From: an uncultured Bacteroidota bacterium | GTDB lineage: Bacteria; Bacteroidota; Bacteroidia; Chitinophagales; Saprospiraceae | NCBI GenBank assembly: GCA_937861115.1 | Contig: CALMBD010000339.1 | Location: 1-34,413 of the forward strand | Direction: 5' to 3' | Length of the DNA stretch: 34,413 nt | Shown here: in pieces, positions 15,572 through 27,809 of the stretch | How positions within the stretch are numbered: position 1 is the stretch's first letter | Layout: every line of letters begins with the position of its first letter | Notes under the pieces: generated by a model | What the model was told of the DNA's origin: nothing | What the model saw: the letters and a program-made list of their open reading frames with translations, nothing else | The model's database searches: none | Program-made: the position numbers and the translations under genes

Positions 15572-15808
15572 GGTGGAAAATTTGATTTTGAAAAGAGCGA
15601 TACCAAAGATTTTATACCTTTCCGACGAAATCTGTTTCTATTCCCCCCCTCTTTCCGGTCGGCGGAGCTAAATTGCCCCGCAAACATCAAAACTTCGCAA
15701 CATTTTTTTTCGAATAATACTTTAGTTGCATTTTGCAGCGTGGAGCATACTCTATCTGCCGGTTTGCACACACAGACAACATTGTTAACCAAATATAGAA
15801 AACTGATT

Positions 15809-17356
15809 ATGTCACTTCCGAATGTTCGTCCCCAGTCCGATTACCTTTATGAGCGTCGCGGCCCCTGGCCGCAACCCCAGCCCTCCCATCCTTTCGGCTT
15901 TGCTCCCGGGGTAGTACACGTGCCTAAAAACGAAATCAGAAGATGGAACATGACCACGGGCTTGCGCTACTTTCTGACGATCATAACCTATTGGCCTGTT
16001 GCAGCATGGTACGCTTTTACCCACCGTTCGCTGGAATACCTTTCCGATGAGCAGTACGAAGAATACCTGACGCACACGTCTCTGAGCAAGTTTATTTCAG
16101 ATGAGTTGAATAAACCCGAGAAGTGCCCTGAAAACGAAAAACTCAGGATTTTTGCCGAATTCTTGAAAAAGGAACCGAATGAAACATTCTGGGTATCCGA
16201 TTTTACCCTGGTGAAAGATATGACAACCTACCCCGGGGTGCATTGCGCGCCGACCATGGCCCTGTTCAAGGGCGAACTGGTGAACGGAAAGCGCAAGGCA
16301 GTAGCCATCTATTTCCCCAACAACAAACTGATGCTGACGCCTGAGGATGGTGAGGCATGGGAACTGGCCAAATACTTTGTGATGCAGGGCGCCTCGCTTC
16401 GGATATCCCTCTCGGCACACGCCAACCTGCATTTTCCCTACGACAGCATCAATGCCATCTCCAAATCAGCGCTGCCCAAAGACAGCGTGCTGCTGCGCAT
16501 GCTGCTGCCGCACCTCGAACTGTCGCTGGAACTCAACTACAACGTGCTCAACTCCTCCACCTCGCCGGTACAGAATCCCCACTACATGCCGTATGCGGCG
16601 TTGCCGGCCGGTCCGGATGGCCTGATGACGCTCTTCCTGTATGGGTACCACGGCATGCTCAATGACCCGCCGGAGGATTCGAAGGGAAACCCCATTGAGA
16701 ATCCGTCTTATCCGAAATTCAGGTTGAAACTCGCACCGAGCCAAATCCATTCGGATTACGGAACCTTCCTGATGGCGTACTTTGAGTGCATCCGGAAATT
16801 TGTTTATAGTGTTATTGAACTGATCCCGCAGGATGAGTTTGTGGATATCAAAGTTTGGGCGAATTACGTGAGCAACTATGTGCCGGGCTTTCCTTCGGGC
16901 GACATTATATTTATTGAAGACGAGGATGGCAAGATTCAGTTCCATACCAAGGCGATTGATGAAAACCTGCTGGCTATGGCGATCGCGAATATCATCTGGG
17001 ATTTATCCATTGGCCATGCTGCCGACCATTACAATTACAGCACGATCAATATCAACCACATGCCCTTCATCATTCGGGTGCCGCCGCCCGACAGCAAAAA
17101 TATCCCGCCCATCGACCGCAAGGCCATGATCAAATGGAAGGATATTTTCAAGCACAAGTACGAACGCGAGATGTTTTTTGTCGCCCGGAACGTAACACTG
17201 CTCAAGGATGTCCGTTATGCTTTCAATAAACCCGGAGAGGAGCCCCTTCGGAAATTGAACGAGGAGTTGTTGCAGCATCTGCATGAGACAGAAAAGAACC
17301 TGAAGGTCTTCAACTACATTCCGCTGGACCAAATCTCACGCAGCATTCAGTATTGA
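15809..17356 (+). CDS. Divergent lipoxygenase-family protein
   Basis: The 515-residue protein aligns by eye with the catalytic domain of lipoxygenases, non-haem iron enzymes that add O2 to polyunsaturated fatty acids. The helix WELAKYFV...SAHANLH, then LLLPHLELSLELN, corresponds to WLLAK...SHWLNTH...LLTPHYRNNMNIN in soybean LOX-1. GHAADHYNY (His403, His407) corresponds to the second ligand pair (His/His in animal enzymes). RVPPP and the ending YIPLDQISRSIQY match the conserved C-terminus. Odd points: the first His pair (His204, His208) is spaced H-x3-H instead of H-x4-H, and the terminal iron-binding Ile is Tyr. There is no PLAT domain or signal peptide. ATG 15809 is preferred to ATG 15740, which lies in a likely leader. 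It heads a run of three signalling genes. Confidence 0.78.
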   Translation: MSLPNVRPQSDYLYERRGPWPQPQPSHPFGFAPGVVHVPKNEIRRWNMTTGLRYFLTIITYWPVAAWYAFTHRSLEYLSDEQYEEYLTHTSLSKFISDELNKPEKCPENEKLRIFAEFLKKEPNETFWVSDFTLVKDMTTYPGVHCAPTMALFKGELVNGKRKAVAIYFPNNKLMLTPEDGEAWELAKYFVMQGASLRISLSAHANLHFPYDSINAISKSALPKDSVLLRMLLPHLELSLELNYNVLNSSTSPVQNPHYMPYAALPAGPDGLMTLFLYGYHGMLNDPPEDSKGNPIENPSYPKFRLKLAPSQIHSDYGTFLMAYFECIRKFVYSVIELIPQDEFVDIKVWANYVSNYVPGFPSGDIIFIEDEDGKIQFHTKAIDENLLAMAIANIIWDLSIGHAADHYNYSTININHMPFIIRVPPPDSKNIPPIDRKAMIKWKDIFKHKYEREMFFVARNVTLLKDVRYAFNKPGEEPLRKLNEELLQHLHETEKNLKVFNYIPLDQISRSIQY

Positions 17357-17405
17357 CAGGTTGAAGCCGTCTATTACAGGAAACGTTACAGATATTTGAG
17401 GACTG

Positions 17406-20400
17406 ATGATATCAATTCCCGAGTTTGACATCAAGGAAGTGCTTTTTTCCGGAGGTGGAAAGATGATTTGCCATGCCGTAAGGCAGGAAGACGGGCAGGC
17501 TGTAATCCTCAAGGTTGTTTCCGGTGCGATGCAACATGAGACGGAGGCTGTCAAACTGCGGCGGGAGTATGAACTGGTCAGCAAACTGGCATTTCCCGGT
17601 GTTCCGAAAATACTGGGAATCAAGGAGTTTGGCGAAGGCGTTGCTATTGTTATGGAAGACTTTGGCGGCTTGCCTTTGAAAACCCTCATTCCCGAAAACG
17701 GGATGCCCCTGAAACAGTTTTTCCCGATTGCCGGCCGCCTGGCGGATATCGTTGCTGCATTGCACCGCCAGCAGATCATCCACAAGGACATCAAGCCCGA
17801 TAACATTCTCCTGAATACGCAGACGGGAGAAGTGCGGCTGATCGACTTTGGCATAGCGGTCCTGATCTCCCAGGAAACCGTCGGTATCGTCAGTCACCAG
17901 GACCTCGAAGGTTCCCTGCAATACCTTTCGCCGGAACAGACCGGGCGGATGAACAGACCGGTAGATTATCGCACCGATTTTTACTCGCTCGGGGTATCTT
18001 TCTATCAGATGTTGACCGGCCGCCTGCCCTTCACCTCCGATGATCCGGCAGAACTGGTCCACGCCCACCTGGCGCGCAATCCGAGGCCGCCTGCCGAGAT
18101 CAATCCTGCCATCCCGCCTGTGCTTCAGTCTATTGTGCTGAAACTCATGGACAAGTCGCCGGAACGCAGGTATCAGAGTGCCGGAGGCCTCAAAAAAGAC
18201 CTGGACACCTGTGCCCAGCGGCTGGATGCGGAAGGCAACATTCCCGGGTTCGAGATAGGCGCCTCCGATTTTTCCGGTCGTTTCCATATATCCCACAAAC
18301 TTTACGGCCGCGAACTGGAACTCCGGTTTTTGCTCGACAGTTTCGACGATACCGGCCAGGGCAAGGCGGAACTGCTGTTGGTGTCGGGATTTTCCGGCAT
18401 CGGCAAGTCTTCCCTGATCCGGGAGATTCACAAGCCTGTGGTGTCGCGGCGCGCCTATTTTACCGAAGGTAAATTTGACCAGTTCAACCGCGATGCGCCT
18501 TACAGTGCCGTGATCCTGGCGTTTCGCAGCCTGTTGGGGCAATTGCTTTCCGAAAGCGACGCCCGGGTGACGCAATGGAAATCGGACCTGCTCGATGCCC
18601 TGGGCCCCAACGGCCAGGTCATCATCGACGTGATTCCCGAAGTTCAACTGATCATTGGAGCGCAGCCCGAAGTGGTGACCCTGCCACCCTCCGAAGCGCA
18701 AAACCGTTTCAACCTCGTATTCCAGAAGTTTGTGCAGGCGCTTGCCACCGCCGACCACCCGCTTGTGCTTTTCCTCGACGATTTGCAGTGGGCCGACACC
18801 CCCTCGCTTAAGTTGATGGAATTGCTGTTGCTGGACAAGGAAACATCCTACTTCCTGGTTATCGGCGCCTATCGCGACAACGAAGTGGATGCCACGCACC
18901 CGCTGATGAAAACGATTCAGGTGCTGAAAGAAGCGGAGGATACGGTCAGGGAAATAACGCTTAAGCCGCTTGAAGTCAGCGAACTGAACCAACTGGTGGC
19001 AGATACCCTGCACTGTCCGCCGGCAAGGGCTGAAGTGCTGGGAACATTACTGGAGCAAAAAACCGGGGGCAACCCGTTTTTTGTAAACGAATTTTTGAAA
19101 TCACTGCACGCCGACGGACTGATCGTGTTCGACTTCGGTTCAAATACCTGGGTTTGGGATATCGAAAAAATATACGGCAGAAATATCACAGACAATGTGG
19201 TGGAACTGATGCGCGGAAAGATATTGCTGCTCGATAGCCAAACCCAGCGGCTCTGCCAGTATGCAGCCTGTATCGGCAATAAATTCGATCTGCATACCCT
19301 GGCTACCGTTTGGGAAAAATCGACGCAGTCGACCGCCCGGACCCTGGGTCCTGCCATTGCGGAGGGCTTGATCGTACCGGTTGGAAATGCCTACCGGCTG
19401 GCGGAGATATCTACAAAATCGGACCAGGCCATCAACAGCGAATACCGCTTTTTACACGACCAGGTGCAAAATGCGGCTTATATCCTGATGGACGACGACT
19501 CCAAAAAAGCGCTGCACCTGAAAATCGGCCGGCAGTTGTCCGACAGTTTTTCGGAGGAGGAAAAACGGGAGCGCATATTTGAACTGGTTACCCACTATAA
19601 CCTGGGCAGTTCCCTGATCACGGAGGAACAGGAAAAAATACAGGTCGTCGAACTCAATCTTTTTGCGGGCAAAAAGGCCAAGAACGCCGCGGCCTACCAA
19701 CCGGCATTCCGGTACATGTCTGCCGGACTTGATCTGTTGCCGCAGCATTCCTGGCAGAATCACTACGCTCTTTCCCTCGAACTCTGCAATGAAGCGGCTG
19801 AGGCCGCCTATCTCAGCGGCCGGGTAGATGAGATGGAACGCCTGACGGCAGAGGTATTCGACAAGGCATCCGAATTGCTGCACCGGGTGAAGGCCTATAC
19901 GGTCAAGATTCAGGGATATATCTCCCTCACCCGGAACGCGGAGGCGCTCCGGACCAGTCTGGAAATACTGAGCCTGCTTGGCGCCCGTTTTCCGGAAAAC
20001 CCCAACAAACTGCATATCCTGAAAAGTCTGATCGGTACCAAGTTGCGCCTGCGTGGTAAAAGCGCCGATCAGCTGGTAGCGATGCCCGATATGACAGAAC
20101 CCAGGGTGTCGGCCATCATGGAATTGATGCCTTATGCGGCCTCGGCCTCCTATTTTGCCAAGCAGAACCTGTTTCCGCTGATTGTGTTCAAGCAGGTCAG
20201 CCTGTCCGTGCGCTATGGCAACCACCTCCAGAGTGCGTTCGCCTATGCTACCTACGGCCTGGTGATGTGCGGCAGCACACAGGAATTCGACGAAGGGCTG
20301 AAGTACGGGGAGATCGCCGTGCGACTCCTGGAAAAATTCCGGAACATTTCTATTTATTCGAAGGTACATTACCTGAATTCCAGTTTTATCCAGCCCTGGC

Positions 20401-22733
20401 GGCTGCCTTTTGGCAGCACCATGGAAGGCCTGATGGCTGCCTATCAAAAAGGACTGGAAACGGGCGACTTTCTGTTTTCTTCGTACGCTATTTTCAACGC
20501 CTACTCCACGTATTATTACATGGGCAGGCCGCTGGCAGAACTCAAGTCCGAAATGGATGCTTATGCGGCAACACTGTTGAAGATAAAGCAAAACACGGGT
20601 TTGACCTGGCTGAACATACCCCGGCAAGCGGTCTCCAACCTGATGGATGATACCGTCGTCAACTCCAGGCTGCGCGGCCCGTATTACGATGAAACGGTCC
20701 AGAAAGAACTGCACCTTAACGGCAAGGATTACAGCGGCTTATGCGTGTATTACATGACCTGCATGGTGCTCGAATACTATTTCGACAATACACCGGAAGC
20801 GCTGGAAAGCGGGGAGCAGTGCTTTGCGATCATCGATAGCGTACTGGCGACGCCCCACGTCCATCAGATCTATTTTTATTATGCCCTTACCCTGATTCGG
20901 GCTGCTGAATCGGCCCCGGCTGCACAACGCAAAAAACACCTGGGTCAGGCCAGGAAGTTGCTCAAAACCATCAGGAAATTCGCCAAAAGCGGACCGGAAA
21001 ACTTCCTGTCGAAACAGTATCTGGTTGAGGCAGAACTCGGCCGGCTGCATGGCGATATCTCCAATACCCGGCACTTGTACGACCTTGCCATCAAGACCGC
21101 AAAGGAGAACAACTTTATCAACGATGAGGCCCTTGCCAATGAACTCGCTGCGCGTTTTCAGGAAGAAAAACACCAACGCGACCAAAGCAAAAAATACTTG
21201 CTTGAAGCGCGGAGACTCTACCAGAAGTGGGGTGCGATGGCCAAGGTCAACTGGCTCGACCACAAGTATGGCCTGAAAGACACGAGTGTCCGGACCGGCA
21301 TCGATGCCACCATATCCCGTTCGGGTACGCAAAGTAATATTGAAATGGATATGCATTCCCTGATGAAGGCGGCACTGGCTATTTCAGGAGAGATACAGCT
21401 GGACAAGCTCATGTCGAGGCTCATGCATGTACTGGTTGAAAATGCCGGCGCACAAAACGGTTTCTTCCTCATTGAACGGGAAGGCAACTGGCTGATTGAG
21501 GCAAGGGGCTCGGTAGACAGCGCCGATGAAAAGAGCTGGGTCAAGGCGCCTCTAAAGGGTAACCGGCATATACCTGAAACGGTTACGCAATACGTCGTGC
21601 GCACAAGGGAAGATCTGGTGTTGCACGACATACAGGTGGATGGCCGCTTTTCCGCTGATCCGGTCGTGAAGGAAAAGAAACTTCATTCGGTTCTTTGCCT
21701 GCCGGTATTGCACCAGGGAAACCTGATTGGCATGTTGTACGCCGAAAACAACCTGAACAGCGGCGTGTTTACCGAACAAAGGGTGCAGTTTCTCAAACTT
21801 TTGTCCGGCCAGGTGGCTGTATCGCTTGAAAATGCCTTGCAATACGAACAACTGGAGCAAAAAATTGCCGAGCGTACCGCCGAGGTCATGCAGCAGAAAG
21901 AAGCCCTGGAGAAATCGCTGTCCGACCTTAAGATGGCGCAGGCCAAACTGGTGGATAGTGAAAAGATGGCCTCTCTGGGTCAACTCACTGCCGGTCTGGC
22001 GCACGAGATCAACAATCCCATCAACTTTGTGTCGGTGGGTGTGAATAATCTGAGACAAAACTTCGATGAGTTCAAATCGGCGCTTGAAGTCTACCTGGCG
22101 CTCGATCCGGAGGCCGATAACCGTGCCGCCCTTCAAAATATTGTGGACAAAAAACTGCACCGGCGTATTGCCGAAACAGTTGAAGACAGCGATGAAATGT
22201 TTCGCAGTATTCAGAACGGGATCAACCGGACCGTGAGTATCGTGAAAAGCCTGCGCAACTTCAGTCGCCTCGACGAAGGCGAGATCAAGACCGTTGACTT
22301 GCATGAAGGGCTTGATTCCACGCTGGAGATACTCCAAAGCCAGATCAGGAAGAAGGCAGATATCCACAAGGATTACGGCGAACTGCCTATGGTGGAATGC
22401 GCAGCGGGTAAGGTCAACCAGGTTTTCCTGAACATCATTAATAATGCGCTTCAGGCCATGGAAGACCAGGGAGTGATCACCCTTACCACCAGGTTCCTGT
22501 CGGAACAAAACGAGGTTGCTGTCTCGATTGCCGACACTGGCAGCGGCATGAGCGAAGCGGTGCGCCGCCGCCTGTTTGAACCGTTTTTTACCACAAAACC
22601 TGTTGGCGAAGGCACGGGTCTGGGGCTCTCAATCAGTTATGGCATTATTGAAGATCACAAAGGCCGGATCGAAGTGGAGAGTGAAGAGGGAAAAGGTTCT
22701 GTTTTTACCATTTATTTGCCGGTGAATCAGTGA
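17406..22733 (+). CDS. Trifunctional Ser/Thr protein kinase - AAA ATPase - GAF sensor histidine kinase
   Basis: This 1775-residue protein carries two kinases. Residues ~5-275 are a Hanks-type Ser/Thr kinase with catalytic loop HKDIKPDN, DFG motif LIDFGIA and SPEQTGRMN. A STAND/AAA_16 ATPase follows, with Walker A GFSGIGKSS (328-336) and Walker B FLDDLQWAD (456-464). Residues ~640-1290 are helical, TPR-like repeats. A GAF domain spans ~1315-1470 and a coiled coil ~1480-1520. A histidine kinase ends the protein, with H-box phospho-acceptor His1533 in AHEINNPINF, then the N box INNALQAM, DTGSGM, and GTGLGLSISYGI. The protein is predicted to be cytoplasmic (no membrane segment). The architecture is known from cyanobacteria (HstK-like) and other bacteria. 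It starts 49 bp after the lipoxygenase stop and 83 bp before the receiver-cyclase, its likely phosphate acceptor. Confidence 0.93.
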   Translation: MISIPEFDIKEVLFSGGGKMICHAVRQEDGQAVILKVVSGAMQHETEAVKLRREYELVSKLAFPGVPKILGIKEFGEGVAIVMEDFGGLPLKTLIPENGMPLKQFFPIAGRLADIVAALHRQQIIHKDIKPDNILLNTQTGEVRLIDFGIAVLISQETVGIVSHQDLEGSLQYLSPEQTGRMNRPVDYRTDFYSLGVSFYQMLTGRLPFTSDDPAELVHAHLARNPRPPAEINPAIPPVLQSIVLKLMDKSPERRYQSAGGLKKDLDTCAQRLDAEGNIPGFEIGASDFSGRFHISHKLYGRELELRFLLDSFDDTGQGKAELLLVSGFSGIGKSSLIREIHKPVVSRRAYFTEGKFDQFNRDAPYSAVILAFRSLLGQLLSESDARVTQWKSDLLDALGPNGQVIIDVIPEVQLIIGAQPEVVTLPPSEAQNRFNLVFQKFVQALATADHPLVLFLDDLQWADTPSLKLMELLLLDKETSYFLVIGAYRDNEVDATHPLMKTIQVLKEAEDTVREITLKPLEVSELNQLVADTLHCPPARAEVLGTLLEQKTGGNPFFVNEFLKSLHADGLIVFDFGSNTWVWDIEKIYGRNITDNVVELMRGKILLLDSQTQRLCQYAACIGNKFDLHTLATVWEKSTQSTARTLGPAIAEGLIVPVGNAYRLAEISTKSDQAINSEYRFLHDQVQNAAYILMDDDSKKALHLKIGRQLSDSFSEEEKRERIFELVTHYNLGSSLITEEQEKIQVVELNLFAGKKAKNAAAYQPAFRYMSAGLDLLPQHSWQNHYALSLELCNEAAEAAYLSGRVDEMERLTAEVFDKASELLHRVKAYTVKIQGYISLTRNAEALRTSLEILSLLGARFPENPNKLHILKSLIGTKLRLRGKSADQLVAMPDMTEPRVSAIMELMPYAASASYFAKQNLFPLIVFKQVSLSVRYGNHLQSAFAYATYGLVMCGSTQEFDEGLKYGEIAVRLLEKFRNISIYSKVHYLNSSFIQPWRLPFGSTMEGLMAAYQKGLETGDFLFSSYAIFNAYSTYYYMGRPLAELKSEMDAYAATLLKIKQNTGLTWLNIPRQAVSNLMDDTVVNSRLRGPYYDETVQKELHLNGKDYSGLCVYYMTCMVLEYYFDNTPEALESGEQCFAIIDSVLATPHVHQIYFYYALTLIRAAESAPAAQRKKHLGQARKLLKTIRKFAKSGPENFLSKQYLVEAELGRLHGDISNTRHLYDLAIKTAKENNFINDEALANELAARFQEEKHQRDQSKKYLLEARRLYQKWGAMAKVNWLDHKYGLKDTSVRTGIDATISRSGTQSNIEMDMHSLMKAALAISGEIQLDKLMSRLMHVLVENAGAQNGFFLIEREGNWLIEARGSVDSADEKSWVKAPLKGNRHIPETVTQYVVRTREDLVLHDIQVDGRFSADPVVKEKKLHSVLCLPVLHQGNLIGMLYAENNLNSGVFTEQRVQFLKLLSGQVAVSLENALQYEQLEQKIAERTAEVMQQKEALEKSLSDLKMAQAKLVDSEKMASLGQLTAGLAHEINNPINFVSVGVNNLRQNFDEFKSALEVYLALDPEADNRAALQNIVDKKLHRRIAETVEDSDEMFRSIQNGINRTVSIVKSLRNFSRLDEGEIKTVDLHEGLDSTLEILQSQIRKKADIHKDYGELPMVECAAGKVNQVFLNIINNALQAMEDQGVITLTTRFLSEQNEVAVSIADTGSGMSEAVRRRLFEPFFTTKPVGEGTGLGLSISYGIIEDHKGRIEVESEEGKGSVFTIYLPVNQ

Positions 22734-22816
22734 GTCGATGGCTGCAATGATTTTTAATCCGGACATTCATTCCCCAAGGCCGTTAAACGACTAAAAGAAG
22801 CATAAATCATACTGTG

Positions 22817-23935
22817 ATGAACATACCGGAGAAGCCCACCATACTGTACGTGGACGATGAGGAGGATAATCTGATCGTTTTCAAATCGGCGTTTCGGCGG
22901 GATTTTAATGTTTTGACGACCACCTCGCCAACCGAGGCGCTTGATATCGTGGCGCGTGAGGAGGTGCCGGTGGTCATCTCCGACCAGCGCATGCCGCTCT
23001 GCACCGGCGTGGAACTGTTCAGGAAGATGCCGGAGAATATCGGCATCGTGCGTATCATTCTTACCGGTTTCAGCGATGTCGAGGTGATCATCAAGGCCAT
23101 CAACAATTGCAATATTTACCGATACCTCACCAAGCCCTGGGATCAGGCCGAACTGAAGCATACGCTCGACCATGCCGTGGAAAAGTACTACATGCAAAAG
23201 AGCAATGCCCAGTTGCTCTTCGACCTGAAGGAGGCCAATGAACAACTGGAGGAGAAGGTGCAGTTGCGGACCAGCGAGTTGCAGCAGGAAAAAGAAAAAT
23301 CCGAGCGGCTTTTGCTCAATATTCTACCCGACGAGATTGCCGAAGAATTGAAACAGCACGGCAAGGTGAAACCCCGGCGTTATGACAATGTGTCGATCAT
23401 CTTCCTGGATTTTGTGGAATTCACGAGGATCGCCGAACGCATGCCGCCGGAGGCGCTTATCGAAGAACTGGACTACTATTTCCAGGCCATCGATACGATT
23501 TTCAGCAAGCACGGCATCGAAAAAATAAAGACTATCGGCGATGCCTATCTCGCCGTAGGCGGATTGCCCGTACCCGATGCGCAACATGCCTTGCACACGG
23601 TCGAAGGCGCACTTGAAATCCTTGACTTTATCAATACCGAAAAGGAAAAGCGCAGGGTTGCCGGAGAAACGGCATTTGATATCCGAATCGGCATACACAG
23701 CGGCTCCGTCATCGCCGGCGTAGTGGGCAATACCAAATTCGCTTTCGATATATGGGGCGATGATGTGAACATCGCAGCCCGGCTGGAAAGCAACGGCGAA
23801 AAGGGGCGTATCAATGTGTCCGAATCGACGTATCAACTCACCAAAGACCACTTTCGCTACGAGCATCGCGGCAAGGTGAGCGCCAAGTACAAGGGTGAAA
23901 TCGAGATGTATTTTCTGGCGGACAAACCCGGGTAG
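22817..23935 (+). CDS. Response regulator with class III adenylyl cyclase output
   Basis: The 372-residue protein has a receiver domain (~7-125) with acidic pocket DDEED, phospho-acceptor Asp56 in VISDQRMP, Thr83 and Lys106. A coiled coil (~135-175) leads to a class III nucleotidyl cyclase domain (~185-365). All catalytic positions are present: metal ligands Asp198 (FLDFVEFT) and Asp242 (GDAY), adenine-selecting Lys238 and Asp311 (FDIWGDD), and transition-state Asn318 and Arg322. It should make cAMP when the receiver is phosphorylated, probably by the preceding histidine kinase. ATG 22817 is preferred over the adjoining GTG at 22814. Confidence 0.94.
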   Translation: MNIPEKPTILYVDDEEDNLIVFKSAFRRDFNVLTTTSPTEALDIVAREEVPVVISDQRMPLCTGVELFRKMPENIGIVRIILTGFSDVEVIIKAINNCNIYRYLTKPWDQAELKHTLDHAVEKYYMQKSNAQLLFDLKEANEQLEEKVQLRTSELQQEKEKSERLLLNILPDEIAEELKQHGKVKPRRYDNVSIIFLDFVEFTRIAERMPPEALIEELDYYFQAIDTIFSKHGIEKIKTIGDAYLAVGGLPVPDAQHALHTVEGALEILDFINTEKEKRRVAGETAFDIRIGIHSGSVIAGVVGNTKFAFDIWGDDVNIAARLESNGEKGRINVSESTYQLTKDHFRYEHRGKVSAKYKGEIEMYFLADKPG

Positions 23936-24352
23936 AGCCAGGCGTGAATATTACACCCGGTTCTAATGTTCCCGGCATCTCTGATAATTCCATGGTGGGT
24001 GCGCCGTTTTGTTCCACTTCCCGTTCTTAGGTATCGGTTTGTACTTTCCGGATCAGCCGTTTCCGGCAGGGTTTTCAGCATACGCCCTTTCAATTGTTTT
24101 CAAATATGAAATATATGTAGCGTGAAATCTTGTTCCATCTTGCAAGTGTGCAGGATCGGGTAATAACCGTGCTGAAATGACCTGATCCCCGGTTTTGAAC
24201 CATACTCATTTGATGCTTTTTCCGAACCTCTGCTGGTGTGGCAAAAGGGGCAGTGGGCTCTCAGAAGAGAAAAATTGCATCGTACCCATATCTTTGGCGC
24301 CAGAACAAAACCGGTCGCCTGGAGAACCCCGACCCGGATAAACAGTGCTGCA
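23936..24352 (+). other. Intergenic region upstream of the exporter genes
   Basis: This gap of about 420 bp contains no gene I can support and no clear T-run terminator. The strongest signal is a -7-like element at 24289-24296. The frame of the exporter stays open back to a GTG at 24236, but the added residues are basic and unlike the family. A 28-codon GTG frame at 23944-24030 lacks a double-glycine leader and is not called. Confidence 0.5.
24289..24296 (+). promoter_or_regulatory. Putative -7 element for the exporter operon
   Basis: TATCTTTG matches TAnnTTTG. Transcription would start near 24303, just before the TTG start at 24353 and after the alternative GTG at 24236, which favours the shorter protein. 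No convincing -33 TTTG is seen. Confidence 0.35.
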
Positions 24353-26530
24353 TTGAAACAATTCCCTTTCTACCGCCAACTGGACGCTATGGACTGCGGC
24401 CCCACCTGCCTGCGCATGATCGCAGCGCATTACGGTCGCCATTATTCCCTGCAATATCTCCGGGAACGATCGCACATCAGTCGCGAAGGGGTTTCCCTGC
24501 TCGGTATCAGCGAGGCCGCCGAGCGCATCGGTTTCCAGACCATGGCGACCAAAATACCTTTTGAGGGGGAAGATGCCGGACTCATGAACGCCCCTCTGCC
24601 CTGTATTGCGCACTGGCGTCAGCGGCATTTCATCGTAGTGTATAAGGTGACGAACCGGCATGTCTGGGTTGCCGATCCGGCAGACGGTAAATTCAAACTC
24701 ACCCGCGCTGCGTTCGAGGCCGGCTGGCTGGCAGACGGCAACCGGGGTGTGGTCCTGCTGCTCGAACCCGGCCCTGATTTTCAACAGTTGCAGGAGGAGG
24801 CACAGAAAACCAGGGGATTGGGTATTTTTTTCAACTACATGACCCGTTATCGCCGTCAGTTTATTATTCTGATAATGGGTATGCTGTTGGGCAGTTTGTT
24901 CCAACTGATATTTCCCTTTCTCACCCAGTCCATTGTCGATGTGGGTATCCAGAATCAGGATATCGACTTCGTTTACCTGATCCTGATCGCTCAACTGGTG
25001 CTTTTTGGCAGCCAAACCCTGGTCAGTTTTATCCAGAACTGGATACTGCTTTTTATCGGCACGCGCATCAATGTCAGTCTGGTTACCGATTTTCTGATCA
25101 AACTGATGCGGCTGCCGCTCGGCTTTTTCGACGCCAAAATGTCGGGGGATCTGATCCAGCGCGTCAATGACCAGAAACGGATAGAGACGTTTCTCACCAG
25201 TTCAAGCCTGCAGATCAGTTTTGCCCTGATCAACCTGATCGTATTCAGTGTCGTATTGTTGCTGTACAACAGCCTCATTTTCGCGGTATTTACGGTTGCC
25301 AGTCTGCTTTATGTGGGCTGGATTGTGCTTTTTCTGCGAAAACGAAAAGAGGTGGATTATCAGGCATTCCAGCAGTTGTCTGAAAACCAGAGCAGCCTGA
25401 TCGAATTGATCCAGGGGATGCAGGAGATAAAATTGCAGGGCAGCGACAAAAAACGGCGCTGGCAGTGGGCCAATATTCAGGCACGCCTGTTCCGGGTCAA
25501 TATGCGTTCGCTGGCTATTACCCAATACCAGGATGCAGGCGGGTCATTTATCAACCAGGTAAAAAACATCCTGATCTCCTTTATTGCCGCCAAAGCGGTC
25601 ATCGACGGGCAGATGACCCTTGGGATGATGATGGCTGCTCAATATATTGTAGGCCAGGTCAATCTTCCCCTGCAGCAGATGATCGGGTTTATCCGCTCGC
25701 TGCAGGATGCGCGGATCAGCCTCGAACGCCTCAATGAAATTTACCAGATGGAGGACGAGGAAACGGATGTCAGCCTCGATCATATCCCCGAAAAAGGCGA
25801 TATCGTGCTGGAAAACCTGTCCTTTCGGTACAATGCCCTTGATGAAGAGGTGCTGAAGGACATCAACCTGGTTGTCCCGAGAGGCAAGGTGACGGCGATC
25901 GTTGGCACCAGCGGGAGTGGCAAAACCACCCTGGTTAAATTATTACTGGGCTTTTACGGTCCCCAAAAAGGGCGTGTCATGGTGGGCGGAATTCACCTGG
26001 ATGCGATTCAAAAACGCACCTGGCGCAGTCGTTGCGGCGCCGTGATGCAGGACGGGTTTATTTTTTCCGATACCATCGCCAACAATATTGCAGAAAGCAG
26101 CGAACGTGTGGATATTGAAAAACTGCTGTGGGCGGTTAAAATCGCCAATATCCAGGAATTTATCGAGTCGCTTCCGCTGGGGTACAATACGATGATCGGC
26201 GCCAAGGGCAACGGCATAAGCCAGGGACAGCGCCAGCGGATGCTCATTGCCAGGGCCGTATATAAAAACCCGGAATTCATCTTTCTCGACGAAGCGACGA
26301 ATGCCCTCGATTCCAGCAATGAACGTGTGATCATCAATCACCTCGAGCAGTTCTTTTCCGGCAAAACGGTAGTAGTGGTAGCGCATCGCCTGAGTACGGT
26401 ACGCCATGCCGACCAGATCGCCGTGCTGGAAAAAGGCAGGCTGGTTGAACTAGGCTCACATGCCGAACTGGTAGAAAAGCGCGGCGTTTATTTTCACCTC
26501 GTAAAAAATCAACTGGAACTTGGAACCTGA
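24353..26530 (+). CDS. C39 peptidase-containing ABC exporter
   Basis: The 725-residue protein combines three modules. An N-terminal C39 peptidase has Cys15 (MDCGPTC), His92 (RHFIVVY) and Asp108 (ADPADG). A six-helix ABC exporter membrane domain spans ~160-440. The ATPase has Walker A GTSGSGKTT, signature ISQGQRQR (in place of LSGGQ, as often in these exporters), Walker B FIFLDEATNALD and H-loop AHRLSTV. Such transporters cut double-glycine leaders and export the peptide or protein through a HlyD adaptor. I chose TTG 24353 (MKQFPFYRQLDAMDCG) because the family starts there and a promoter-like element sits 57 bp upstream; GTG 24236 is the alternative. The gene overlaps the adaptor gene by 11 bp. 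No precursor peptide was found nearby. Confidence 0.93.
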   Translation: MKQFPFYRQLDAMDCGPTCLRMIAAHYGRHYSLQYLRERSHISREGVSLLGISEAAERIGFQTMATKIPFEGEDAGLMNAPLPCIAHWRQRHFIVVYKVTNRHVWVADPADGKFKLTRAAFEAGWLADGNRGVVLLLEPGPDFQQLQEEAQKTRGLGIFFNYMTRYRRQFIILIMGMLLGSLFQLIFPFLTQSIVDVGIQNQDIDFVYLILIAQLVLFGSQTLVSFIQNWILLFIGTRINVSLVTDFLIKLMRLPLGFFDAKMSGDLIQRVNDQKRIETFLTSSSLQISFALINLIVFSVVLLLYNSLIFAVFTVASLLYVGWIVLFLRKRKEVDYQAFQQLSENQSSLIELIQGMQEIKLQGSDKKRRWQWANIQARLFRVNMRSLAITQYQDAGGSFINQVKNILISFIAAKAVIDGQMTLGMMMAAQYIVGQVNLPLQQMIGFIRSLQDARISLERLNEIYQMEDEETDVSLDHIPEKGDIVLENLSFRYNALDEEVLKDINLVVPRGKVTAIVGTSGSGKTTLVKLLLGFYGPQKGRVMVGGIHLDAIQKRTWRSRCGAVMQDGFIFSDTIANNIAESSERVDIEKLLWAVKIANIQEFIESLPLGYNTMIGAKGNGISQGQRQRMLIARAVYKNPEFIFLDEATNALDSSNERVIINHLEQFFSGKTVVVVAHRLSTVRHADQIAVLEKGRLVELGSHAELVEKRGVYFHLVKNQLELGT

Positions 26531-27809
26531 AGACATTGTCATAAACGAGCAGCAGGAAATACAGGCCATGCTGGGAAATAATCCCGGCTGCTGGGTGACG
26601 TTCAGTATTCCCGCACTCCTGGCGCTTTTTGTCGTGTTGATCGGCATGAGCTGGTATGTGCAATATCCCGATATCGTCGTGGTCCCGGTAACCATCACTT
26701 CGGAGCGGCCACCGGTGCGCCTGCTTGCCAGAAGTGCCGGAAAACTGAGCCGCCTCATGGTGCGCGATGGCGATCAGGTGGTCGCCGGGCAGGAACTGGC
26801 AGAACTGGAGAGCGGCGCCGAGGGCAAAGATGTGGCCTCGCTGAAACTACTGCTGGCTCAACTGGAGGCCGCCAACTCGCCCGAGGCGCTCCAACCGCTC
26901 GTTTGGCCGGAAGGACTGCGCCTGGGCCAGATGCAAAATACATTTGCCTCACTCGTCAACGCACATCGAAACCTCCGGATACAACTCCGGCAGGATATTG
27001 TTTCCAGGCAAATTCTGGCGATCGACAATGAAATCAGGGAAACCCGCGACCTCATTGCCTCGATGGAGCGCCAGGCGGATATGCTCAAACAAGACTTGTC
27101 TTTGGTAGAAAAAGACCTGGATCGCCAGCGGCAGTTGGCCCAACAGGGACTGGTCAGCGCCCAGGATATGGAAAAAACAAACTCGAATTTTCTCCGGCAA
27201 AAGCAGCAACTGGAAGGGTTCGTTGCCAATACGAGCAGCCAGCGGGTGAAGATCAGGCAGCTGGAAACCGAACAGAGCCAGCTCAGCCAGGGGCATCGCC
27301 AGGACCTGCTGACAAAATGGGAAACAATCCGGCAAATCTGCCTTGGCCTGCGCGGCGAGATCAACCAGTGGGAACTGCTTTACCTGGTAAAAGCGCCTGT
27401 TGCGGGGCGTATCACCCTGTCCGTGCCGCTTTCCGAGCAGGCGTTTATCCGTGCCGACCAGGAATTGTTCTCGATTGTTTCACCTATGGCCGATAGCGGT
27501 ATTCTGGCGCTGGGAACCTTGCCGCAAGCCAATTCAGGCAAGGTGGAAACCGGACAAAAGGTAAATATCCGGCTGGACGGGTTTCCGTACCAGGAGTACG
27601 GGGTGTTGGAAGGAAAAATACTGTCTGTTGCCTCCGTGCCGACCGACGGCAGCTACCTGCTTCAGATAAGTCTGCCCCCCGATCTGCGAACCTCGTCGCG
27701 TGAAATCATTCCTTTCAAGCCGGAAACCAGGGGCACCGGGCATATCATCACCCGGCAGCGGACGCTGTTGCAGCGTGTTTTTCAACAGTTGACCAGCCTT
27801 CGGGAATAG
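26520..27809 (+). CDS. HlyD-family membrane fusion (adaptor) protein
   Basis: The 429-residue protein has one N-terminal membrane helix (~26-48), a half-lipoyl motif (VRLLARSAGKLSRLMVRDGD), a long coiled-coil hairpin (~110-265), the second lipoyl half (LVKAPVAGRITLS), and a C-terminal beta-barrel (VNIRLDGFPYQEYGVLEGKI). It would bridge the C39 exporter to an outer-membrane TolC-like channel, which is not encoded in the window. The frame starts with TTG 26520 inside the end of the exporter gene; ATG 26568 is a possible shorter start that keeps the membrane helix. The overlap implies coupled translation. Confidence 0.9.
   Translation: MEPEDIVINEQQEIQAMLGNNPGCWVTFSIPALLALFVVLIGMSWYVQYPDIVVVPVTITSERPPVRLLARSAGKLSRLMVRDGDQVVAGQELAELESGAEGKDVASLKLLLAQLEAANSPEALQPLVWPEGLRLGQMQNTFASLVNAHRNLRIQLRQDIVSRQILAIDNEIRETRDLIASMERQADMLKQDLSLVEKDLDRQRQLAQQGLVSAQDMEKTNSNFLRQKQQLEGFVANTSSQRVKIRQLETEQSQLSQGHRQDLLTKWETIRQICLGLRGEINQWELLYLVKAPVAGRITLSVPLSEQAFIRADQELFSIVSPMADSGILALGTLPQANSGKVETGQKVNIRLDGFPYQEYGVLEGKILSVASVPTDGSYLLQISLPPDLRTSSREIIPFKPETRGTGHIITRQRTLLQRVFQQLTSLRE

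Follow-up and report, generated by a model that had tools for sequence, protein, structure and literature searches.

What does a lipoxygenase-like (LOX-like) gene do directly in front of a large dual kinase gene and a receiver-cyclase gene in an uncultured member of the Saprospiraceae? The question is raised by positions 15809-23935 (+ strand) of the window, i.e. the whole stretch of 34,413 nucleotides that was analysed. Three open reading frames on the same strand encode a LOX-like protein of 515 amino acids (15809..17356), a protein of 1775 amino acids composed of a Ser/Thr kinase, an AAA_16 (STAND-type) domain, a helical region, a GAF domain and a histidine kinase (17406..22733), and a receiver-class III adenylyl cyclase protein with Asp56 in its receiver, which comprises 372 amino acids counted from the ATG (22817..23935). 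The original prediction, according to which these genes form a signalling system leading from a lipid to cAMP, started from this layout, and the layout was confirmed: the gaps are 49 bp (17357-17405) and 83 bp (22734-22816, up to the ATG at 22817), and neither contains a terminator-like site on the + strand. Across the region, terminator-like sites occur in chance number (10 observed versus 10.3 in shuffles), and a promoter scan of the region gave chance level only. The receiver-cyclase gene starts at GTG 22814 or ATG 22817; for the LOX-like gene, a GTG at 15740 is possible further upstream and the ATG at 15809 is favoured by its relatives. A hydropathy scan found no transmembrane segment in the LOX-like protein.

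The second gene product carries a Ser/Thr kinase domain (17448..18179, +; Pkinase, residues 15-258) with the motifs HKDIKPDN and DFG and Lys36, followed by an AAA_16/STAND NTPase domain (18297..18863, +; residues 298-486) with Walker A K334 and Walker B D458, a GAF domain as a candidate ligand site (21399..21827, +; residues 1332-1474), and a histidine kinase module (21975..22727, +) made up of HisKA with His1533 (residues 1524-1561) and HATPase_c (residues 1670-1774). The third protein consists of a Response_reg domain (residues 10-118) and a class III cyclase domain (residues 186-369; both numbered from the GTG). All catalytic residues are kept in five of the five loci that have the three genes, namely K36, D128, N133 and D147 of the Ser/Thr kinase, the Walker residues K334 and D458, H1533, N1679 and D1710 of the histidine kinase, and, numbered from the ATG, D13, D14, D56, T83 and K106 of the receiver and D198, K238, D242, D311, N318 and R322 of the cyclase, in agreement with the domain order and the intact receiver-adenylyl cyclase that had been predicted. 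Their roles in kinase, receiver and cyclase (among them phospho-acceptor Asp, metal Asp, adenine-specifying Lys/Asp and Asn/Arg) are those that we take to be general for these families. In the kinase relatives L015, L101, L103 and L104, the Ser/Thr kinase motif is broken.

The lipoxygenase fold proposed for the first gene product was right with regard to the superfamily, but not obvious, and the fold itself is a prediction: an AlphaFold2 model calculated from four sequences (the window protein and three relatives) was too poor for use (mean pLDDT 42.9). Searches with the single sequence gave no Pfam or NCBIfam match and no notable match in the PDB, so that profiles were needed. The curated model PF00305 did not match the window protein and matched one of eight relatives weakly (E 0.018); a six-frame search of the genome with this model was without a match, as was the control anywhere. 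When a profile of nine relatives was compared with the PDB, 18 of the 19 matches at E values up to 10 were lipoxygenases, including the first 13 (E up to 0.017), with a best E value of 9.3e-7; a profile comparison with two canonical relatives was weak (probability 51%). By remote profile similarity, the LOX-like protein is a divergent member of the lipoxygenase superfamily.

Its predicted metal site is strictly conserved and at the same time unusual. A first pair of putative ligands, H204-x3-H208 (16418..16432, +), aligns with the H-x4-H motif of mammalian lipoxygenases with one gap in the profile alignment, and a second, H403-x3-H407 (17015..17029, +), with their HSSNH motif; both pairs and D406 are invariant in all 15 LOX-like proteins. 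The protein ends in Ile-Gln-Tyr (17345..17353, +) and all 15 end in SIQ[Y/F], where the carboxylate of the last residue may serve as fifth metal ligand; on sequence grounds, every member thus has the four histidine positions and the carboxylate position. We assume the ligand identities of known lipoxygenases, a canonical x4 spacing of the first pair and a terminal Ile in most of them, as opposed to Tyr or Phe here. A reading in which one iron-ligand histidine is replaced by Ile/Val was dropped: with the ligand numbering that we take to be that of rabbit 15-LOX, the true pair is the later one in the alignment, so that all four histidines are kept and the difference is a one-residue deletion. 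Because of the x3 spacing and the C-terminal Tyr/Phe, the site may not be catalytic. The LOX-like protein could hence have little or no catalytic activity and act as a sensor in direct contact with the kinase, with the binding of a lipid instead of its turnover as the signal; we consider this rather unlikely, since the four histidines and D406 are invariant and binding alone might not need them.

Among the 15 LOX-like genes found, that of the window included, eight are directly followed by a kinase of the same family, seven of seven in the window's genus among them, contrary to the prospect that orthologues of the LOX-like gene might never lie near the kinase. The three-gene order is present in five of five close loci, the window among them. 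Their flanks are of two kinds (the window and L009; L007, L008 and L011), L008 and L011 counting as one since they are about 97% alike. Of 41 genomes of the genus, the same five, all LOX-bearing, contain orthologues of both the receiver-cyclase (at 79% or more) and the kinase (at 64% or more). At two further loci, L015 and L017, the LOX-like gene directly precedes a fused kinase-AAA-GAF-cyclase, in which the cyclase occupies the place of the histidine kinase, and at L016 it directly precedes a kinase that is cut by the contig end. The presence of the cyclase at the kinase's own C-terminus strengthens the predicted link between histidine kinase and receiver. Within the limit used, no relative of the LOX-like protein was found on plasmids. 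The recurring gene order and the fusions support the view that the set of three genes is conserved.

Beyond the original prediction, LOX-like genes were also found with other partners. A membrane SpoIIE phosphatase directly follows the LOX-like gene in two of the 15 loci, one gene has no evident partner and no adjoining kinase of this kind, and four genes, all from one genus, lie in copper-efflux clusters, again without an adjoining kinase of this family. At L017, a canonical lipoxygenase and an alpha/beta-hydrolase are encoded divergently beside the LOX-like gene, which also counts in favour of the lipid-signalling reading given below. This arrangement, which means that the LOX-like protein need not be the oxygenase, and the direct proximity to a different output, SpoIIE, add to the case for a lipid-binding sensor. 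The copper-efflux clusters and the conserved predicted ligands would in turn suit a sensor of iron, oxygen or peroxide, which feeds the redox state of its metal, not a lipid, into the kinase. This explanation has a low probability, as the enzymes encoded at the same position beside other kinases share, judged by their families, lipid or terpenoid substrates and not a metal.

These other enzymes were likewise not foreseen. In the window's genus, a lipid- or terpenoid-modifying enzyme precedes 13 of the 14 readable kinases of the family. Fused kinase-cyclases follow a lipoxygenase and an allene oxide synthase homologue at L098 (matches to LOX 5ek8, E 2.1e-94, and AOS 1u5u, E 3.5e-55), two flavin enzymes at L099 and, by 88% identity, at L100, an RPE65-type oxygenase at L104, and an MpaB/Lcp oxygenase together with a Pyr4-like terpene cyclase at L103; the cut kinase at L079 follows the same pair. 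Two-step pathways of this kind suggest that a small molecule is made and that the enzyme is more than a protein partner. The pairing of one kinase family with unrelated enzymes and with two-step pathways points to products, which argues against a lipid-binding sensor. In 123 genomes of another order, picked regardless of enzymes and searched with a profile built from eight kinases, seven of them enzyme-linked, such an enzyme is the next upstream gene on the same strand for 11 of 57 kinases, some of these pairs with gaps of 150-240 bp; for the other 46, none was recognised at this position. The commonest Pfam family next upstream on either strand in this order is RPE65 (five of 54 kinases scanned, two of the five pairs from one genus). 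The expected number, based on the 24 RPE65 genes counted across 39 genomes, is about 0.007. Kinase relatives on plasmids have about 42% identity; among four plasmid loci inspected out of 870 records, those of Nostoc and Microvirga are without a lipid/terpenoid enzyme neighbour. So far, one Azospirillum locus is the case from another phylum. Enzyme and putative receptor are hence genetically linked across lineages, which is one feature expected of a quorum-sensing-like pair of signal synthase and receptor. An incidental adjacency of LOX-like gene and kinase would fit the 46 wider-family kinases without such a recognised neighbour and the mere two contexts of the five close loci; it is extremely improbable given the eight LOX-like genes that adjoin a kinase in several contexts and the RPE65 counts. 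The neighbour counts of LOX-like genes, genus kinases and RPE65 also led us to discard the idea that the genes play no part in signalling.

Taken together, conserved gene order, intact catalytic residues, fusion of cyclase and kinase in relatives and repeated pairing with enzymes are the sequence basis for a reading that we favour by a small measure: the enzyme would be the source of a lipophilic signal to which the neighbouring kinase/cyclase responds, the three genes forming one signalling unit with cAMP as output. The LOX-like protein would be a metal enzyme whose reaction yields or transforms an oxidised lipid (an oxylipin, broadly defined), and the STAND/helical/GAF region of the kinase would be the receptor for this product. 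Upon binding, the histidine kinase would phosphorylate Asp56 of the receiver-cyclase, thereby changing cAMP levels. In the wider family, other lipid/terpenoid-modifying enzymes would act as signal synthases, and the output could be a cyclase, a SpoIIE phosphatase or a histidine kinase. Points against this reading are the altered spacing and terminal Tyr/Phe of the LOX-like protein, the 46 of 57 kinases of the other order without a recognised enzyme neighbour, the Nostoc and Microvirga loci, the five LOX-like genes in copper-efflux clusters or alone, and the broken Ser/Thr kinase motif of some relatives. The joint system that was originally proposed is thus partly supported: the conserved set and the kinase-receiver link stand, and lipid oxidation, the lipid ligand, phosphotransfer, cAMP production and co-transcription are predicted. 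Gene order on one strand does not by itself reveal which way the relationship runs, and the enzyme gene usually comes first, so the enzyme might also be the target, with the kinase responding to another stimulus and controlling the enzyme that is co-transcribed with it. This has a very low probability, because the output domains observed (cyclase, SpoIIE phosphatase, histidine kinase) are directed at other targets and no DNA-binding regulator is encoded in the three-gene set itself.

As the partners are kept together in related bacteria, an oxidised lipid may be sensed as a hormone-like signal. To our knowledge, few inputs of Bacteroidota cAMP systems and no ligands of large STK-AAA-GAF kinases are known; the linkage assigns these cAMP systems, the kinases and bacterial lipoxygenases a role that can be tested, and from the enzyme encoded next to each kinase one can predict to which chemical class the kinase's ligand belongs (oxylipin, apocarotenoid or terpenoid). 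Lipoxygenases have been reported in <0.5% of bacterial species (PMC6612559), where their role is not well defined. Among the literature matches listed, no paper dealt, in its matching text, with a LOX-like/kinase/receiver-cyclase gene set. If the proposal is true, it would describe a class of bacterial lipid-hormone signalling that ends in cAMP. It is tempting to speculate, and quite possible, that Bacteroidota and perhaps other phyla possess a general class of such circuits, in which oxylipin, apocarotenoid or terpenoid synthases are encoded next to a dedicated STK-STAND-GAF receptor with a swappable output (cyclase, SpoIIE phosphatase or histidine kinase) leading to cAMP or phosphorylation signals; on this tentative reading, the circuits would be the bacterial counterpart of signalling by eicosanoids and retinoids.

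Several known systems resemble parts of the set. With the PF00305 family, represented by mammalian ALOX12/15 and by 5ek8, presumably a cyanobacterial lipoxygenase, the LOX-like protein shares profile similarity, a W-x2-AK helix, the four His ligands and the C-terminal carboxylate position, and most members also have R-x-PPP after the second His pair; however, it lies below Pfam detection, has no N-terminal PLAT match and differs in the x3 spacing, the terminal Tyr/Phe and its length of 515 amino acids. The kinase has the architecture of cyanobacterial STK-GAF-HisKA dual kinases (cbSTKIII, e.g. HstK), for which the matching text describes expression but does not mention a lipid enzyme partner (PMC2176072). 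Its kinase and AAA parts and the cyclase part also match the model of the TOMM system kinase/cyclase fusion (TIGR03903), but with a score of 148.8 far below the cut-off of 705.75. Homologues of both enzymes of the coral allene oxide synthase-lipoxygenase (1u5u/3dy5) are encoded at L098, where the pair is followed by a kinase-cyclase gene, whereas the window has the LOX-like protein alone. The oxylipin-dependent quorum sensing (ODS) of Pseudomonas aeruginosa employs heme dioxygenase/diol synthases, in contrast to the LOX-like protein of the window. In that system, as far as the matching text describes it, bacterial fatty acid oxidation enzymes are linked in a positive loop to a receptor that recognises what they produce (PMC6377657). 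There the receptor is a LysR-type regulator, while a kinase phosphorelay and cAMP are predicted here.

Comparative genomics gives good support to the view that the divergent lipoxygenase (LOX)-like gene of the window (15809-17356), the gene for a Ser/Thr kinase-AAA_16-GAF-HisKA-HATPase protein (17406-22733) and the gene for a receiver-class III cyclase (22817-23935) form a joint signalling unit. As ORFs, domains and a terminator scan confirm, the three genes lie on the same strand and are separated by gaps of 49 and 83 bp, in which no terminator-like site was found on the + strand. The receiver-cyclase has the complete catalytic residues that the original prediction ascribed to it, and the receiver, cyclase, histidine kinase, Ser/Thr kinase and Walker residues are all intact in five of five loci with the three-gene set. 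Since a Lys and an Asp occupy what we take to be the adenine-specifying places, the third protein is assigned as an adenylyl cyclase.

Searched as a single sequence, the LOX-like protein matches neither Pfam nor NCBIfam models and gives no notable PDB hit. Lipoxygenases account for 13 of the 15 PDB matches of a profile built from eight LOX-like sequences, and for 18 of 19 with a nine-sequence profile, the best being ALOX12 (E 9.3e-7; limit E 10). The histidines of the LOX H-x4-H motif align with H204 and H208, which have one residue fewer between them, and the second ligand pair aligns with H403/H407, after which R-x-PPP follows. All 15 aligned relatives keep H204, H208, H403, D406, H407 and a C-terminal SIQ[Y/F]. 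Judged by the profile matches, the ligand alignment and these invariant residues, the protein represents a highly divergent branch within the LOX superfamily and probably retains its metal; its catalysis is left open by the altered spacing of the first pair and the terminal aromatic residue. Superfamily membership of the proposed lipoxygenase-fold protein is supported by the profiles; the fold itself is predicted from sequence comparison, the structure model being of too poor quality to be informative.

LOX-like genes are rare. They were found in 6 of 60 related genomes, 2 of 395 of the phylum, 4 of 396 of the order and 2 of 395 of the class, the window's own genome being included each time, and in 2 of 148 and 8 of 271 genomes of groups centred on two distant carriers. 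The counts overlap one another and refer to the best few candidates per genome. The original prediction had named LOX-like orthologues that never occur near the kinase as an argument against a joint system; a kinase of this family was found directly 3' of 8 of the 15 different LOX-like genes aligned, on the same strand and with gaps of -1 to 59 bp. In five of the eight (the window, L007, L008, L009 and L011), the histidine-kinase form and the receiver-cyclase follow, so that the three-gene order recurs in other genomes of the genus, and it does so in two genomic contexts, one with flanks common to the window and L009, the other with flanks common to L007, L008 and L011 (similarity between L008 and L011 about 97%). 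L015 and L017 encode a single-protein kinase-AAA-GAF-cyclase instead, and the kinase of L016 is cut by the contig end. Two further LOX-like genes are followed by a membrane SpoIIE-phosphatase gene (L024:7738-10752, gap 9 bp; L032:8453-11473, gap 3 bp). Four genes of one genus (L033, L034, L035, L037) lie inside a copper-type efflux cluster with CusA-, OEP- and CusB-like proteins and a P-type ATPase with heavy-metal-binding domains, assigned by a domain scan of L033 and by homology to L033 for the other three, and L036 has no evident partner among its neighbours. In the LOX-like tree, the three-gene loci cluster together and the copper loci cluster with L036; L017 and L032 have long branches and their placement is unsure. 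Just 3' of the set, the window encodes an ABC transporter with a C39 peptidase domain and an HlyD-type protein, a peptide-export pair (24236-27809); L008 and L011 also have a homologue of this transporter, ~5 kb 5' of their LOX-like genes.

The same 5 of 41 genomes of the genus, including that of the window, hold orthologues of both the receiver-cyclase (at least 79%) and the kinase (at least 64%), and in a sister form the cyclase replaces the histidine kinase at the kinase's own C-terminus. Because of this co-occurrence and the fused sister form, a phosphorelay from the kinase to the receiver-cyclase appears credible; the fused cyclase is as expected if the split pair works via phosphotransfer, and we infer that both forms may work alike. 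Ser/Thr kinase residues are degenerate in L015, L101, L103 and L104, which retain Walker A; Ser/Thr kinase activity is therefore not a constant part of the family.

A survey of the genus covered other relatives matching most of the kinase length, with at most the 11 best candidates per genome scored. Among these together with the seven LOX-like loci of the genus, 13 of the 14 kinases with a readable upstream gene directly follow a gene for a lipid- or terpenoid-modifying enzyme. The exception is L101, where an oxidoreductase of old-yellow-enzyme type is encoded divergently nearby; the kinase of L102 (G030:C171), which starts at a contig end, stands outside the 14. The upstream enzymes at the other loci comprise a pair of flavin enzymes (in both L099 of genome G006 and L100 of G031), an RPE65-type carotenoid oxygenase (L104 in G014), and an MpaB/Lcp-type oxygenase with a Pyr4-like terpene cyclase (L103 in G008, L079 in G004). 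Among candidate oxylipin-cAMP circuits, L098 in G014 stands out most clearly: there, a lipoxygenase (E 2.1e-94 to 5ek8) and a coral allene oxide synthase homologue (E 3.5e-55 to 1u5u) precede an STK-AAA-GAF-adenylyl cyclase in an apparent operon (L098:1439-9992).

Sampling without regard to enzymes in the order of genome G134, with at most the four best candidates per genome scored, gave 61 places with a kinase of this family in 34 of 123 genomes (profile A5, E up to 1e-100); as seven of the eight kinases in A5 are enzyme-linked, this sample is not wholly neutral. Four partial places were left out, and enzymes beside the remaining 57 kinases were called by BLAST against those already found and by Pfam scans of selected genes. 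In 11 of 57, a lipid- or terpenoid-type enzyme is encoded immediately upstream in the same orientation (gaps 0 to 237 bp): LOX-like in one, RPE65 in five, a flavin enzyme in two, a Pyr4-like cyclase plus flavin enzyme in two and a FabH-like protein plus flavin enzyme in one. Two pairs among the 11 each come from one genus, which leaves about 9 of 55 independent. For 46 kinases, these calls recognized no enzyme directly upstream; RPE65 lies directly 3' of one further kinase, and a weakly similar flavin-type gene lies divergently upstream at L191. When the gene next upstream on either strand was scanned with Pfam at 54 fetched loci, RPE65 was the commonest family (5 of 54, against an expectation of about 0.007 if gene density is taken as 0.85 per kb), and two styrene-monooxygenase-type genes were present at unspecified loci. 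The 39 genomes searched for RPE65, six from the genus and 33 from among the 34 above, contain 24 such genes by our own row count; seven of these adjoin a kinase of this family, six upstream and one downstream (L104, L167, L169, L175, L180, L192, L185); these kinases have cyclase or SpoIIE output, and enzyme-linked kinases overall differ in output (cyclase, SpoIIE phosphatase, HisKA_3 kinase). Three related cyclase-type kinases (L163, L172, L178) each follow, by 3 bp, the gene of a conserved 238-aa protein, itself preceded by an AIG2-like protein gene; the L163 protein gave no match in a Pfam scan, and the other two are its homologues. In these cyclases, Ser and Ser/Thr occupy the positions of the adenine-specifying Lys and Asp.

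Kinase relatives also occur on plasmids (870 records). Among four plasmid loci examined, those of Nostoc and Microvirga have no flavin-type enzyme neighbour; such an enzyme lies divergently beside the kinase in Rufibacter (Bacteroidota; 767 aa, 39% identity to the L099 enzyme) and Azospirillum (Pseudomonadota; 762 aa, 29%). On the Azospirillum brasilense plasmid, the flavin-type enzyme and an acetoacetate-decarboxylase-family protein (L138:1446-4693) are encoded divergently from the STK-AAA-GAF-HK gene; a gene for outer-membrane transport, presumably FadL-like in kind, lies close by.

This wider enzyme-kinase pattern strengthens the proposal of a lipid input to the three-gene set, which is plausible. 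Most likely, the LOX-like protein would form or convert an oxidised lipid, the STAND/helical/GAF part of the kinase would bind it, and the histidine kinase part would drive the receiver-cyclase. A made ligand is preferred over a merely bound protein partner mainly because of the two-enzyme neighbours, namely LOX with the allene oxide synthase homologue and oxygenase with terpene cyclase. The main rival is that the LOX-like protein is a lipid-binding sensor. Both readings agree with L017:5115-8405, which encodes, divergent from the LOX-like/kinase-cyclase pair, a canonical LOX (PF00305, E 8.1e-12) and an alpha/beta-hydrolase; the product of the canonical LOX may be either converted or sensed by the LOX-like protein.

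Under the terms searched, the gene set was not found in the accessible text of review articles dealing with lipoxygenases of bacteria and with octadecanoids (PMC11011848, PMC11719350), and a literature search that covered few subscription papers gave no report of it among the matches listed. Dual STK-GAF-HisKA kinases have long been known from cyanobacteria (PMC2176072). Among systems known to us, oxylipin-dependent quorum sensing in P. aeruginosa comes nearest; its receptor is a LysR-type regulator (PMC6377657).
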